From Desulfobacteraceae bacterium (lineage in GTDB: Bacteria > Desulfobacterota > Desulfobacteria > Desulfobacterales > SURF-7), in assembly GCA_003599865.1 (NCBI GenBank), contig QZKS01000007.1:1-64000 (forward strand): a stretch of DNA of 64,000 nucleotides, in the 5' to 3' direction. Of the stretch, positions 18,682 to 23,271 are shown one piece after another. The notes beneath the pieces are model-generated. The model was not told the DNA's origin. It saw only the letters and a program-made list of their open reading frames with translations, and searched no databases. The translations under genes and the position numbers were made by a program. Numbering within the stretch: the stretch's first letter is position 1; each line of letters opens with the position of its first letter.

Positions 18682-19395
18682 ATGAAGAAAGCAATCACAA
18701 TCGTAATTGGAATTCTTTTTCTAACCGCTTCCATTTCTTTCGCAGATTCGGAAGTATCCGGCAAAGTAATCAACAAAGCAAACGTGAAAAAATCCGCCAA
18801 TATTGCCATGGGCGAAGATGCAACCGCAAGTATGGGTTCTGTTAAGCTGAAAGACTCCAATGTCTCTGGAACGGTAGTCAATAAGGCAGATGTGAAAAAG
18901 TCCGCCAATATTGCAATTGGCCAAAAAGCCAAAGCCAACATGGGATCGGTAACCATGAAAGATTCCGATGTATCCGGCAAAGTAATCAACAAGGCCGATA
19001 TTAACAAATCTGCTAATATCGCAGCCGGCCAGCGTGCCACAGCCAACATGGGATCTGTGACCATGAAAGATTCTGATGTATCCGGAAAAGTTGTCAACAA
19101 GGCTGATGTGAAAAAGTCTGCCAACATCGCAATGGGTCAGGGTGCCACAGCCAATATGGGTGCCGTAACCATGAAAGGTTCCGACGTTTCCGGCAAGGTT
19201 ATCAACAAGGCCGAAGTTAAAAAATCCGCCAACATCGCAATAGGTGAAGATGCCACAGCCAACATGGGTGCTGTAACCATGAAAGATTCCAATGTTTCCG
19301 GTAAGGTCATCAATAAGGCTGATGTCAATAAATCCGCCAATATCGCAGCTGGAAAAGACAGTGAGGCAAGCATGGGTTCTGTAACCATGGAGTAA
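18682..19395 (+). CDS. Secreted protein made of six 36-residue repeats (candidate fibre or matrix subunit)
   Basis: 237 residues: a 21-residue signal peptide ending SISFA, then exactly six tandem 36-residue repeats and nothing else. The repeat core reads V-S-G-K-V-I-N-K-A-D-V-K-K-S-A-N-I-A, then G-x-x-A-x-A-x-M-G-S-V with little variation. It is low in aromatics and has no Cys. Short regularly spaced Gly/Asn/Ser/Ala strands are typical of beta-solenoids and of curli-type amyloids, though the spacing differs from CsgA. There is no membrane anchor or sorting signal. It heads a cluster with a CsgG-like lipoprotein and two small secreted proteins, so export as a surface polymer is inferred. The start has a strong AGGAGG. 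Confidence 0.88.
   Translation: MKKAITIVIGILFLTASISFADSEVSGKVINKANVKKSANIAMGEDATASMGSVKLKDSNVSGTVVNKADVKKSANIAIGQKAKANMGSVTMKDSDVSGKVINKADINKSANIAAGQRATANMGSVTMKDSDVSGKVVNKADVKKSANIAMGQGATANMGAVTMKGSDVSGKVINKAEVKKSANIAIGEDATANMGAVTMKDSNVSGKVINKADVNKSANIAAGKDSEASMGSVTME
18745..19392 (+). repeat. Six tandem 108-base coding repeats
   Basis: The mature part of the secreted protein consists of six in-frame units of 108 bases with no spacer. Protein units are highly alike, while third-codon positions differ, so the array is old enough to have drifted under selection for protein sequence. Units start at residues 22, 58, 94, 130, 166 and 202. Confidence 0.92.
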
Positions 19396-19415
19396 TTAAG
19401 ACTGTAATACCAAAA

Positions 19416-19456
19416 TTTCCCGGAATCGGAAGACCGTTTTTCCCGGTTCCGGGAAA
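19416..19456 (+). other. Stem-loop just after the repeat-protein gene
   Basis: TTTCCCGGAA and TTCCGGGAAA are exact 10-base arms around a 21-base loop, 20 bases after the stop codon. No T-run follows on the plus strand, so it is more likely an mRNA 3' stabiliser or processing element than a simple terminator. Such an element would let the subunit message be far more abundant than the downstream export genes. Confidence 0.5.
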
Positions 19457-19680
19457 AAAAGCAATTTATCTTTTCCTTTAAACGGTAACGAGAATCACAT
19501 ATTATTTAGGCAGATTTTTTTAAAACCAGTTGGGCCTGTAACGCCGGTATCAAACTCTGCGTGTTATATTAAGAGTGACGGATGAAAATAGGTAATATCC
19601 GGAATGTCAGCCTTGGATATTATTTTATGAATGTTTTTTGATGCGGTATTTTCGTTACCCGATGGGAAAAGGAGGGTGTC

Positions 19681-20034
19681 ATGAAAAATCAATCTTATCT
19701 TGTGATCACAATCACGCTATTCTTACTGTTGGCAACGAGTGTCGGGGGGATGTGTGGTGATCTGGATGATGGTATGGCGATTGACGATAGTATTAATAGT
19801 TATGATGATCTTGGGGATCCGGAACAGAATATCAATTTTATTAAGTTGAATGCAAAGAGTAGTGCGAAACGACAGCAAAAATCGATTGATAAAGGTGTTA
19901 TTGACAAAGACAGTTCCAGTGGAAGCGGAAGTGGTGCCATGAATAGTGTTGTTATGGGAGCCGGATCAAATGTTAAGGGCGATATCATAATTATTGATGA
20001 GTCAAAAGGGGATAAAACACAGGTTGTCGAGTAA
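19681..20034 (+). CDS. Small secreted protein in the CsgG-like locus, function unknown
   Basis: 117 residues with a signal peptide (hydrophobic run LVITITLFLLLATSVGG, cleavage near MCG-DL). The mature part is acidic, then has a Ser/Gly stretch (SSSGSGSGAMNS) and a C-terminal SVVMGAGSNVKGDIIII whose MG-A-G-x-N pattern recalls the repeats of the upstream protein. It could be a nucleator or minor subunit, as CsgB is to CsgA; this is inference. A strong AAGGAGGGTG precedes the ATG. It lies between the repeat protein and the CsgG-like gene, all on the same strand. Confidence 0.75.
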   Translation: MKNQSYLVITITLFLLLATSVGGMCGDLDDGMAIDDSINSYDDLGDPEQNINFIKLNAKSSAKRQQKSIDKGVIDKDSSSGSGSGAMNSVVMGAGSNVKGDIIIIDESKGDKTQVVE

Positions 20035-20148
20035 TTATCGGTTTCCCTTCATGCCTTGGATATTATTAAAATAAATTGAGCAAGAAGACAGAATCAAGTA
20101 TTTTGCCGATGGAAACGCTAACGTCATAGTGATAATATAGGGAGAAAA

Positions 20149-21522
20149 ATGAAATATTTATCGGGGGAAATTATTCAATTGAAATGGATTCGGTCGGTAC
20201 TTTTTACAATACCCGTCCTTTTGGTTCTGATTTCCTGCGCCAGTGTAGACCCAAGGCAAGTGGATGTGGAAATTAAGGAAGAGCCGCCTGAGGTCAAGAT
20301 AACATCCTTTACCGAGGCATTGACCCAGCTTGGCAAAATGACGGAAATTTATGCAACGGAGGAATTGAGGGTTCAAAGCAAGGATATTGCAGACAATACC
20401 GGCACATCCGGGGCAACCGGCGGAGAAATTCCCCGGGATGTGACGGAGATGCTGCAAAGCACCCTTAATTCCATTGGCGGGAAGGTTAGATTTATTCCAT
20501 ATAATCCAGCCTTTATACAGAATCAAATGGTGACGGGTTATTCTACGTTTGAGAACAAGATGATCCCGGATGTGGTGATTACCGGCGGTATTACTGAGTT
20601 TGACAGGGGACTCGAAACCCGAGGCAGCAATGTGGATGCCGGTATTGCCGCAGATTTTACTCATGCGCCATCGTGGGCGCCATCCAATTCGGTAGCCGCA
20701 GATTATGGTTCCGGAGAAAAATATGGTTTGGCGAGTATTACACTTGATTTTAATATGATTGATTTTCAGTCAATGGCCGGCATTGCGAAGATGCAGACTG
20801 TAAACTCAATGAAGGTTTCCAAAGCGGTCAGTGAAAAAGAGTTGGCCATAACCCTTTTGGGACCGACCTTCGGATTGAAGGGATCCATTAAAAAAGTTCA
20901 GGGAAGGCATGCTGCAGTAAGACTTCTGGTGCAACTCAGCATGATGCAGATTATCGGCAAATATCTTATGGTGCCTTACTGGACCCTGCTGCCGGATGTA
21001 TCTCCTGATCCGGTTGTAATGGACGCCTTGAAAAAGGCCTATTTTGCTATGGATGAGGTGGATCGAATTATTAAAGTGCAGGAATTTTTATTCATTCAGG
21101 GCTATGATGTCAGCATTACCGGTGAGCTTGATCAAGCCACGCTTTCAGCACTCCAGAAGGTCAAACCTGGAGCCAATACCATTGACAGGGATACATATCT
21201 TGCCGTGTTTTTATCGATTCCGATTAATGATGATACCTATGAAAGACGTATGGAGCTGAACAAGGCATATGCAGCTCTCGCCCGGGAACCGGAAATTGCA
21301 CCGGAACCGGTAGTTACACCACAGCCGGCGCCTAAGAAGGTAACAAAGTCGGCTCCTGAGCCGGCTCAGGAACCTCAGGAAGTTGCGAGTGCTCCACCAG
21401 CTCCAAAAACAGAGAAAAAAGCCCCTGCAGAAACCAAAACATCTTCAGCAGAAGAGGAAAAAAGGCGCTCTGCATTAAAAGACGGTTTGGGCGGCAGAAT
21501 GCTGTCTGAAGATGAGTGGTAG
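20149..21522 (+). CDS. CsgG-like outer-membrane lipoprotein with peptidoglycan-binding-like domain
   Basis: 457 residues. A lipoprotein signal ends in a lipobox VLIS-C (C30). Residues about 60-290 follow the CsgG/HfaB pattern: PDVVITGGITEFDRGLETRG, a strand-rich part with SITLDFNMIDFQSM, and a C-terminal helix HAAVRLLVQLSMMQIIGKYL that matches where CsgG has its last helix. Residues about 310-350 (VQEFLFIQGYDVSITGELDQ) resemble a PG_binding_1 unit, and the tail is Pro/Ala/Lys-rich with an acidic end. CsgG forms the nonameric curli export pore; a similar pore is inferred here. The next gene starts four bases after the stop. Confidence 0.75.
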   Translation: MKYLSGEIIQLKWIRSVLFTIPVLLVLISCASVDPRQVDVEIKEEPPEVKITSFTEALTQLGKMTEIYATEELRVQSKDIADNTGTSGATGGEIPRDVTEMLQSTLNSIGGKVRFIPYNPAFIQNQMVTGYSTFENKMIPDVVITGGITEFDRGLETRGSNVDAGIAADFTHAPSWAPSNSVAADYGSGEKYGLASITLDFNMIDFQSMAGIAKMQTVNSMKVSKAVSEKELAITLLGPTFGLKGSIKKVQGRHAAVRLLVQLSMMQIIGKYLMVPYWTLLPDVSPDPVVMDALKKAYFAMDEVDRIIKVQEFLFIQGYDVSITGELDQATLSALQKVKPGANTIDRDTYLAVFLSIPINDDTYERRMELNKAYAALAREPEIAPEPVVTPQPAPKKVTKSAPEPAQEPQEVASAPPAPKTEKKAPAETKTSSAEEEKRRSALKDGLGGRMLSEDEW

Positions 21523-21526
21523 TGGA

Positions 21527-21910
21527 ATGAACAAAAAAATGAAAAGATGCGTTCAATGGGTTTTAATAGCCCTCATTATATCCGTTTCATCCGTCTGGGC
21601 AGGAAACCGGGCAATGGTAGAGCAGAGAACCAAAGAACTGGATGAAACGAATAAACAGGCGGTTGGTCAGCTCCCTGATTTACCTAAAAATGGAACTGTT
21701 AACATCAAGGCAAAAGCGAGATATAAAGAGGGAAGCATCCAGTTTGATGTCTATGATAAAAAGATATCCGATAGTGAGGGAAAAGAGTTACGATTGGACA
21801 GCGACAGAAATCTTGATACAGGATCTGTTAAAGAAGGAACTATTTATATCAATCAAACAAAAGACATAGAAAATGGGGAGAAACAAGAAAATGATCCCAA
21901 AGACAATTAA
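21527..21910 (+). CDS. Small secreted protein co-encoded with the CsgG-like lipoprotein
   Basis: About 127 residues with a signal peptide (VQWVLIALIISVSSVWA) and a charged mature part containing two strand-like stretches, NGTVNIKAKARYKEGSIQF and KEGTIYINQTK. No family is recognised. The ATG at 21527 follows the CsgG-like stop by four bases; an in-frame ATG at 21512 would overlap that gene. Its last 20 bases overlap the next gene, so these three are translationally linked. Its place suggests a periplasmic accessory factor, in the position that CsgE or CsgF would fill in curli operons, but no similarity to those was seen. Confidence 0.75.
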   Translation: MNKKMKRCVQWVLIALIISVSSVWAGNRAMVEQRTKELDETNKQAVGQLPDLPKNGTVNIKAKARYKEGSIQFDVYDKKISDSEGKELRLDSDRNLDTGSVKEGTIYINQTKDIENGEKQENDPKDN

Positions 21911-22640
21911 GTATTTTATATTGGTAACAGTTTGTATCGGAGTAATGGCTCCTTCCGGTTGGACGGGTAATAAAAGAATCATGACAATACGAGCTGCCAA
22001 GGTCATGGCTGAAAGGGCGATTGTCGAATCAATTTACGGATTGAAATTGAAGGCAACAGAAGAAGTGAAAGATATGATTCCCGCCAGTTTCGAAGGATCG
22101 ACAGAGACAAAGACCCTGGCCAAGATCAAGGGGATCAGCTATGATGATATTGTATATGATCAGGAAAAGGATATTGCCAAGGTAACTGCATCCGTGGCTT
22201 TGGATACCATTACCAATGTTGACGGGAAGGTAATGAATTTAAAAAACAAGGTTTATAAGAGAGTCGGATTTGCTACCTCCACTCCGGAGATGGCCGGTCC
22301 GATAAGAGCTCTTCGCGCTGCGGAGCTGGATGCATACAAACAATTGATCAAACAGATTGTCGGTTTTACATTGGAGAGCCAGACCAAGGTAGAAAATTAT
22401 ATGTTGAAATCCGATCTGGTAAAAACAAAAGTCCTGGCAACCCTGTACCTTGCCGAAGTCACGGATTACGGTTGGGATAAACACAATGATGCCTTTGTAA
22501 AAATGTCACTGAATGTGAGTGAGATATCTGAAGTTCTGGGAGAGGGTATTGTTGACGGTGGCCAGGTTATTGAGGTTGAGGGCCAGGGAGCCCAGGAGGA
22601 TGATTTCTCCGCTACCAAAAAACCGGCGAAAAAAGAGTAA
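21891..22640 (+). CDS. LPP20/FlgT-N-like periplasmic protein
   Basis: About 249 residues with a signal peptide (YFILVTVCIGVMAPSGW) and the alternating helix-strand layout of LPP20/FlgT-N domains: RAAKVMAERAIVESIYGLKL early, a strand pair DIAKVTASVAL, and a second copy-like RALRAAELDAYKQLIKQIVG with strands at the end, so two related domains in tandem are likely. Such domains associate with outer-membrane pores and flagellar collars in other bacteria. The ATG at 21891 is preferred over 21873 because GGGGAG lies ten bases upstream. A terminator-like structure follows, which closes the locus. Confidence 0.75.
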   Translation: MIPKTIKYFILVTVCIGVMAPSGWTGNKRIMTIRAAKVMAERAIVESIYGLKLKATEEVKDMIPASFEGSTETKTLAKIKGISYDDIVYDQEKDIAKVTASVALDTITNVDGKVMNLKNKVYKRVGFATSTPEMAGPIRALRAAELDAYKQLIKQIVGFTLESQTKVENYMLKSDLVKTKVLATLYLAEVTDYGWDKHNDAFVKMSLNVSEISEVLGEGIVDGGQVIEVEGQGAQEDDFSATKKPAKKE

Positions 22641-22752: not shown

Positions 22753-23271
22753 ATGAAAGACGGTAAAAGAGCACTGCGGGCACGCTTGCTTGATCTCGTA
22801 ACCGATTGGGATCGGATGGATCGGACATTTCCTTCTCACAATGAATTGGAATCGATCGGAAGGGCACTCCTGGAATGGAAAAAGGAGGAGAATATACAGG
22901 GCCTTTGGGATGTTCCTCCTCTGATTATATCCACAACCATCGATGATGGCTTGGGACAGGGCTTGCGGATTGTCAATCTGTATTCAGAGGTTGCCGGGCT
23001 TGTGGTGATGCCGATCGGACTGCTCCAGCCGTTAGAAAAGATCATCGCCGCGTGCAATAAAAACTGCCCGGATATACTGGGATTGACTGTTTTGCAATTT
23101 GATTCTGAAGAAATGCTCATTGAAATCAAAAGGGGAATTTCACCGGATATAAAAATAATTGCCGGTGGTCCGGTTTTTACTGCCGACTCAGATTTTGCTG
23201 AACGAGTGGGTATTCATTTTGTTGCCAAAAATGTGGCCGCTTATTTGAGGTATCTTTTGCAGAACGTATGA
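22753..23271 (+). CDS. B12-binding-domain-like protein with altered cobalamin motif
   Basis: 172 residues. After a short helical N-terminus (1-50) the pattern of a cobalamin-binding Rossmann-like domain follows: STTIDDGLGQGLRIVNLY, VAGLVVMPIG, DILGLTVLQFDSEEML and IKIIAGGPVFTAD, which ends in the AGGP turn common in B12-binding domains of radical SAM proteins. The DxHxxG motif is changed to D65-G-L67-G-Q-G70, so the lower-axial His is absent and base-off/His-on cobalamin binding is unlikely. No catalytic domain is attached. It is convergent with the M48 protease gene six bases away. Confidence 0.65.
   Translation: MKDGKRALRARLLDLVTDWDRMDRTFPSHNELESIGRALLEWKKEENIQGLWDVPPLIISTTIDDGLGQGLRIVNLYSEVAGLVVMPIGLLQPLEKIIAACNKNCPDILGLTVLQFDSEEMLIEIKRGISPDIKIIAGGPVFTADSDFAERVGIHFVAKNVAAYLRYLLQNV

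Follow-up and report, generated by a model that had tools for sequence, protein, structure and literature searches.

We examined five consecutive plus-strand genes at positions 18682–22640 of a 64,000-nucleotide stretch of a Desulfobacteraceae genome (positions 1 to 64,000 of contig QZKS01000007.1; hereafter, the window), which together appear to encode an outer-membrane secretion system of the CsgG type and the repeat protein that it would export. The genome is a 5.0-Mb draft of 100 contigs, 97% complete, and its closest relatives are Desulfobacterales bins. The five open reading frames (ORFs) were found at the positions and in the order given in the original prediction, which had been made from the sequence alone, and all of them have secreted products: a repeat protein and candidate fibre subunit (gene 1, 18682–19395, 237 aa), a small secreted protein of the family that we call A8 (gene 2, 19681–20034, 117 aa), a CsgG-like outer-membrane lipoprotein (gene 3, 20149–21522, 457 aa), a small secreted, putatively accessory protein (gene 4, 21512–21910, 132 aa), and a secreted, tandem-duplicated LPP20/FlgP-like protein (gene 5, 21873–22640, an ORF of 255 aa whose start codon kept in relatives lies at 21891). 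Genes 3, 4 and 5, which had been described as overlapping or abutting, do overlap one another.

Comparisons of profile and fold, fixed in advance as the test of the claim that gene 3 encodes a CsgG-like lipoprotein, both pointed to CsgG. A Pfam search with the window lipoprotein alone returned no family above threshold, and neither Pfam nor PDB-sequence searches with this protein or with its 8-member profile recovered CsgG. Pfam CsgG was weakly matched by 20 out of the 55 members of the family (best E 2.9e-4), and the profile built from all 55 members aligned to an 11-member CsgG alignment over 231 columns (hhalign, probability 95.7%, E 8.8e-9); as a control, the same profile gave E 0.14 against the LPP20-like family of the operon. 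The AlphaFold model of the lipoprotein (mean pLDDT 82) contains four long strands (residues 142–169, 181–205, 211–236 and 240–250) followed by a helix, an arrangement that, in the model, resembles the two membrane hairpins of CsgG. The top Foldseek matches of this model in the PDB were 25 CsgG chains (best 6l7a, E 4.4e-11), and VIA-align placed CsgG entries at Z 16.0–13.7 over residues ~47–289 (20287–21015), with the pore-state structures at the top (Z 16.0–15.0; best match Z 16.0 over 209 residues, rmsd 6.0). The next-best folds were FlgT, DUF330 and PelC, with Z 10.6 or less. A CsgG homologue with a CsgG fold is well supported by the profile alignment and the predicted structure, and an oligomeric pore of the CsgG type would follow by homology.

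The lipobox cysteine of the lipoprotein (Cys30, codon at 20236) is invariant in the 55 relatives, and the following residue is Asp in 0 out of the 47 lipoboxes found, as for an outer-membrane lipoprotein signal. The channel domain is followed by a helical peptidoglycan-binding-like domain (residues ~288–379, 21010–21285), then by a disordered linker rich in Pro and Ala, and lastly by the conserved tail GGRMLSEDEW at the C-terminus (21490–21519). PG_binding_1 was matched by 16 of the 55 members (best E 1.5e-5), in agreement with the peptidoglycan-binding-like C-terminal unit noticed earlier, and DUF4384 by eight. The tail follows the pattern GRxLxxx[ED]W, with 32 of the 55 members ending in EW and 10 in DW. 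In E. coli CsgG the eyelet of the pore is formed by Tyr51, Asn55 and Phe56 (PMC6957492), whereas in the present family the equivalent stretch (DNTGTSGATGGEIPRD) is shorter by about five residues, is rich in Gly, Ser and Thr, and lacks any aromatic residue in 50 of the 55 members.

The association between the channel gene and the repeat gene was conserved across genomes. A scan of species genomes returned 50 channel loci, mostly from Desulfobacterota, with a few bins labelled Gammaproteobacteria or Campylobacterota. Four Nitrospirota form a single clade within the tree of the channel family, while the phylum labels of the other bins are too unreliable for transfers between phyla to be counted. 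The repeat gene was located at most 3 kb upstream of the channel gene in 35 out of the 50 loci; in another four (L065, L067, L082 and L092) it lies downstream of the channel gene, on the same strand. Six loci without a repeat gene end at contig ends and were excluded; thus, the repeat gene was found near the channel gene in 39 of the 44 loci with enough flanking DNA. The presence of the repeat gene beside the lipoprotein gene in relatives had also been set beforehand as a test of the prediction. Among 291 genomes of the order, 27 contained the channel, 21 the repeat family and 19 both (Fisher p 1.5e-21, which overstates independence because the species are related). The window genome has a single channel gene and several repeat genes. 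The same order of genes is seen in dozens of genomes, which is more than chance would produce.

Gene 1 encodes a signal peptide (18682–18744) followed by a mature protein (18745–19392) of six 36-residue repeats that reach the C-terminus, with no other domain. This composition, as originally described, was confirmed at the nucleotide level by a 108-bp tandem unit at 18744–19347 (Tandem Repeats Finder, 5.6 copies, 78% matches). The mature protein contains no Phe, Tyr, Trp, His, Cys or Pro and has a predicted pI of 9.6–9.7; similarly, in 26 repeat proteins the sum of Phe, Tyr and Trp was about 0.14%, Cys and Pro were zero, and Asn and Lys reached 14% and 11%, respectively. The conserved glycines are spaced by 17 + 19 residues, so that each repeat probably forms two coils of ~18 residues. 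A beta-solenoid had been proposed for this protein, and the confident AlphaFold model (mean pLDDT 92.6) is indeed a predicted all-beta solenoid whose short strands, four to five in every 36 residues, run from just after the signal peptide to the last residues. The number of repeats ranges from 3 to 39 across loci, and many loci encode a second, longer repeat protein, the largest of which (L101) has 39 repeats in 1453 aa.

Pfam searches with the repeat proteins matched many unrelated families, including CsgE (4 members), and were set aside as sums of weak repeat matches, CsgE itself being absent from the genomes; a likeness to the YadA head and to pentapeptide repeats was dropped as weak. The window genome also carries an unlinked short repeat gene with 74% identity (C83, L017:3233–3943), which lies by itself, flanked by two TetR-type regulator genes, and has no channel gene in its vicinity. 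Two further ORFs of the repeat family are located at contig ends (C72 and C97, L018:1–801 and L019:28–1128), one with a signal peptide and the other with a C-terminal end, and may be the halves of one long repeat gene.

The VIA-align matches of the repeat model were generic beta-helices (Z up to 12.8, 3–14% identity). They include an ice-binding protein and polysaccharide enzymes, and together with the strongly basic, Lys- and Asn-rich composition they would suit a soluble secreted solenoid that binds ice, mineral, metal or polysaccharide and does not polymerise. We consider such a role improbable, since the matches are unspecific and of low identity, with no significance in Foldseek, and since a dedicated CsgG-type export route and a half-repeat protein in the same operon would be unusual for a soluble protein.

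That half-repeat protein is the product of gene 2. In most loci, a gene of family A8 (44 members) immediately precedes the channel gene. The gene 2 protein has an acidic N-terminal part (DLDDG.. DD) and a tail, MNSVVMGAGSNVKGDIIII, that resembles MGSVTMKDSNVSGKVVN of the repeats, i.e. half a repeat (hhalign P = 3.6e-4). The tails of 12 out of the 44 A8 members scored above the 99% level of a shuffled null, which lends modest support to the earlier remark that the tail recalls the repeats. We treat the product as a candidate nucleator, cap or anchor subunit. No match to holdfast families was found among the A8 members.

LPP20 was matched by 38 out of the 42 members of the gene 5 family (best E 2.2e-10), and the window protein itself remained slightly below the cut-off (22.9 vs 25.9 bits). 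The gene 5 protein also matched solved FlgP-type lipoproteins in the PDB (E 6.6e-5 to 4e-3); thus, of the LPP20/FlgT-like label given to it originally, LPP20 holds, while FlgP-like is more exact than FlgT-like. The two halves of the protein align with each other (E 5.9e-5), indicating a tandem duplication. A LPP20-like gene was present in 39 out of the 40 loci whose channel has the [ED]W tail and in 0 out of the 8 without it (p 2.4e-8), and the product is likely to act as a periplasmic ring or adaptor. In sharing an LPP20/FlgP-type domain it resembles the lipoproteins of the flagellar basal disk and H-ring, but it is tandem-duplicated, has no lipobox, and is linked to a CsgG-like channel and repeats and not to flagella. 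The CsgG-like and LPP20-like proteins could in principle build a flagellar-type outer-membrane ring (an H-ring or basal disk; cf. FlgO, FlgP and FlgT) with the repeat protein as an unrelated passenger, a possibility raised by the FlgP likeness of gene 5 and by the presence of FlgT among the second-best folds of the channel model (Z 10.6). We regard it as very improbable: the channel model fits CsgG much better (Z 16.0 vs 10.6), no flagellar genes are conserved beside the channel gene, and the repeat and channel genes co-vary across genomes.

The gene 4 family was present in roughly half of the related loci. It had no Pfam match, and its relatives are known only from these loci; the role of the protein is presumably accessory. 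The predicted mature N-termini of genes 4 and 5 (21512–21910 and 21891–22640) are similar, GNRAMVEQ and GNKRIMTI, and could possibly represent a common docking or sorting motif.

Between genes 1 and 2 we identified an RNA hairpin (19416–19456, plus strand, -24.7 kcal/mol) that was more stable than all 20 shuffles of its sequence. A hairpin was found 3' of the repeat-gene stop in every locus whose gap was long enough (22/22), each below its 20 shuffles, and the hairpin sequences differ between loci. In control stretches, hairpins were much less frequent (1 out of 15 between gene 2 and the channel gene, and 3 out of 20 upstream of the repeat gene). The hairpin may be a processing or attenuation site that raises the subunit mRNA over the rest of the operon. 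No Rfam families were found in the region, and the number of sigma-70 sites was at chance level.

We then compared the locus with known secretion and fibre systems. It shares with curli a CsgG-fold lipoprotein channel, an operon with small secreted helpers, and a secreted repeat protein predicted to form a beta-solenoid of open-ended repeats. However, the 36-residue subunit repeat lacks both aromatics and the curlin N..Q pattern, the channel has no Tyr/Asn/Phe eyelet and carries in addition the peptidoglycan-binding-like domain and the [ED]W tail, and a LPP20-like protein stands in place of CsgE. The absence of any CsgE, CsgF, CsgA or CsgB pattern, noted at the outset for this locus, extends to the whole set of 21 genomes: no CsgE, CsgF or curlin repeats (Curlin_rpt) were detected in the window genome and 20 relatives, whereas the E. 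coli control was positive. As direct candidates, gene 5 did not align to E. coli CsgE, gene 2 did not align to E. coli CsgF, and the gene 1 repeat profile failed to align to E. coli CsgA. The Fap system of Pseudomonas also secretes a repeat amyloid with a solenoid-like cross-beta fold, FapC, which was an insignificant Foldseek match of the repeat model (E 5e-2). Fap export uses a different outer-membrane pore.

The HfaA-HfaB-HfaD system of Caulobacter is similar in its combination of genes for a CsgG-like channel, a surface protein and a small protein resembling curlin. HfaB was the nearest named NCBIfam family, matched by 20 out of the 55 channel members (best E 8.3e-5), but the window channel reached 14.2 bits against a curated equivalog cut-off of 300, and the tandem LPP20 protein and the peptidoglycan-binding-like domain are extra here. 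HfaA and HfaD reach the cell surface via HfaB and anchor the holdfast (PMC6707917). By analogy, the repeat protein, once exported, could remain attached to the cell and serve as a short stalk or an adhesin, tethering polysaccharide or another surface instead of growing into a free fibre. The widely varying lengths, from 3 to 39 repeats, would fit single long stalks, the peptidoglycan-binding-like domain would fit a mechanical anchor, and an adhesin-like DUF2807 'head GIN' gene is present in many of the clusters. We hold this possibility as a tentative second choice, given that no holdfast or polysaccharide synthesis genes occur among the conserved neighbours and that nothing in the subunit, neither a cap nor a non-repeat domain, would halt stacking. 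Overall, the system is not curli and its identity as a holdfast anchor is not established; it is probably a CsgG-dependent exporter.

The interpretation that we favour, with a probability of roughly two in three, is that the operon encodes a type VIII-like secretion system of the outer membrane together with the fibre subunit that it serves: uncapped beta-solenoid proteins would leave through a CsgG-type channel and stack into a fibre at the cell surface. Sec would carry the repeat protein to the periplasm, from where it would cross the oligomeric lipoprotein channel unfolded and fold at the cell surface into an uncapped beta-solenoid. Since the mature protein consists only of repeats, both of its ends are expected to be open edges, and end-to-end stacking of the subunits would give a fibre that is thin, basic and free of aromatic residues; the functional amyloid character proposed in the original prediction may apply to it. 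Nucleation or anchoring of the fibre would fall to the gene 2 protein, which carries a single coil-like segment. In the periplasm, the tandem LPP20/FlgP-like protein would assemble into a ring at the mouth of the channel; it would do a job like that of CsgE, to which it is unrelated, and is perhaps held by the [ED]W tail of the channel. The peptidoglycan-binding-like domain would tie the channel to the cell wall, and the hairpin would ensure that subunit transcripts outnumber those of the channel. Sequence and models thus support the original interpretation: the homology and fold of the channel, its conserved linkage to the repeat family, the LPP20 likeness, the hairpin and the association of tail and LPP20 are results of computation, and the oligomeric pore, the export of this substrate, polymerisation, amyloid character and the roles of genes 2, 4 and 5 are inferred from them.

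Several observations weigh against this fibre model. The repeat gene was not detected near the channel in 5 of the 44 loci with flanking DNA, one of which (L096) has a protein of diverged 36-residue repeats just upstream. The Foldseek search of the repeat model against the PDB gave nothing significant (best E 4e-3), and AlphaFold often yields confident solenoids for tandem repeats whatever their role. The association between LPP20 and the tail could come from shared descent rather than contact. Finally, the replacement of the aromatic eyelet by a shorter loop means that gating of the pore must differ from that of E. coli CsgG; a connection between the aromatic-poor substrates and the aromatic-free eyelet loop is a matter of speculation.

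Other genes recur around the operon in related loci: a protein of 100 aa that has a single hydrophobic segment (22 loci; e.g. L059:5989–6291), the DUF2807 'head GIN' protein (22 loci; L058:10593–11264), a small secreted protein that matches no Pfam family (14 loci; L058:5850–6236) and a DegP-like trypsin/PDZ protease (11 loci; L057:222–1865). None of these four families adjoins the operon of the window, which is followed by a small B12-binding-domain protein (22753–23271), as are the operons of L020, L021 and L023. A Crp/Fnr-type regulator gene was found divergent beside the channel gene in 6 loci without a repeat gene directly upstream (e.g. L065, L075 and L076). Finally, L045, L046, L047 and L048 form a divergent channel clade without the [ED]W tail, and the repeat family was not detected at E 1e-10 in their genomes.

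We found no description of such a system in the open-access literature searched, subscription papers being mostly outside the search. New here are the long second repeat protein, the hairpin, the [ED]W tail that tracks LPP20, the near-absence of aromatic residues, Cys and Pro, and the lack of an aromatic eyelet. The broader proposal stands, in our judgement, at even odds: these loci would constitute a separate, widespread CsgG-dependent class, in which a wall-tethered, eyelet-less channel, with a tandem LPP20 ring replacing CsgE and CsgF, exports short and very long beta-solenoids, nearly free of aromatics, Cys and Pro, which in Desulfobacterota and Nitrospirota would polymerise into an extracellular fibre not seen before.

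What is known of CsgG-dependent export rests mainly on curli and on the holdfast anchor of Caulobacter. If the proposal is true, the same channel would work with another substrate, adaptor and eyelet, which would show the essential parts of type VIII secretion. An aromatic-free subunit would escape UV absorbance and perhaps standard screens. Geomonas sp. Red32 (L073) is a likely cultured carrier, which makes the system testable. A surface fibre or anchor that has not been described before is probably made by many bacteria of sediments and the subsurface. Sulfate reducers, Geobacter-like metal reducers and Nitrospirota, groups in which little is known about matrix proteins, would then have such a structure.

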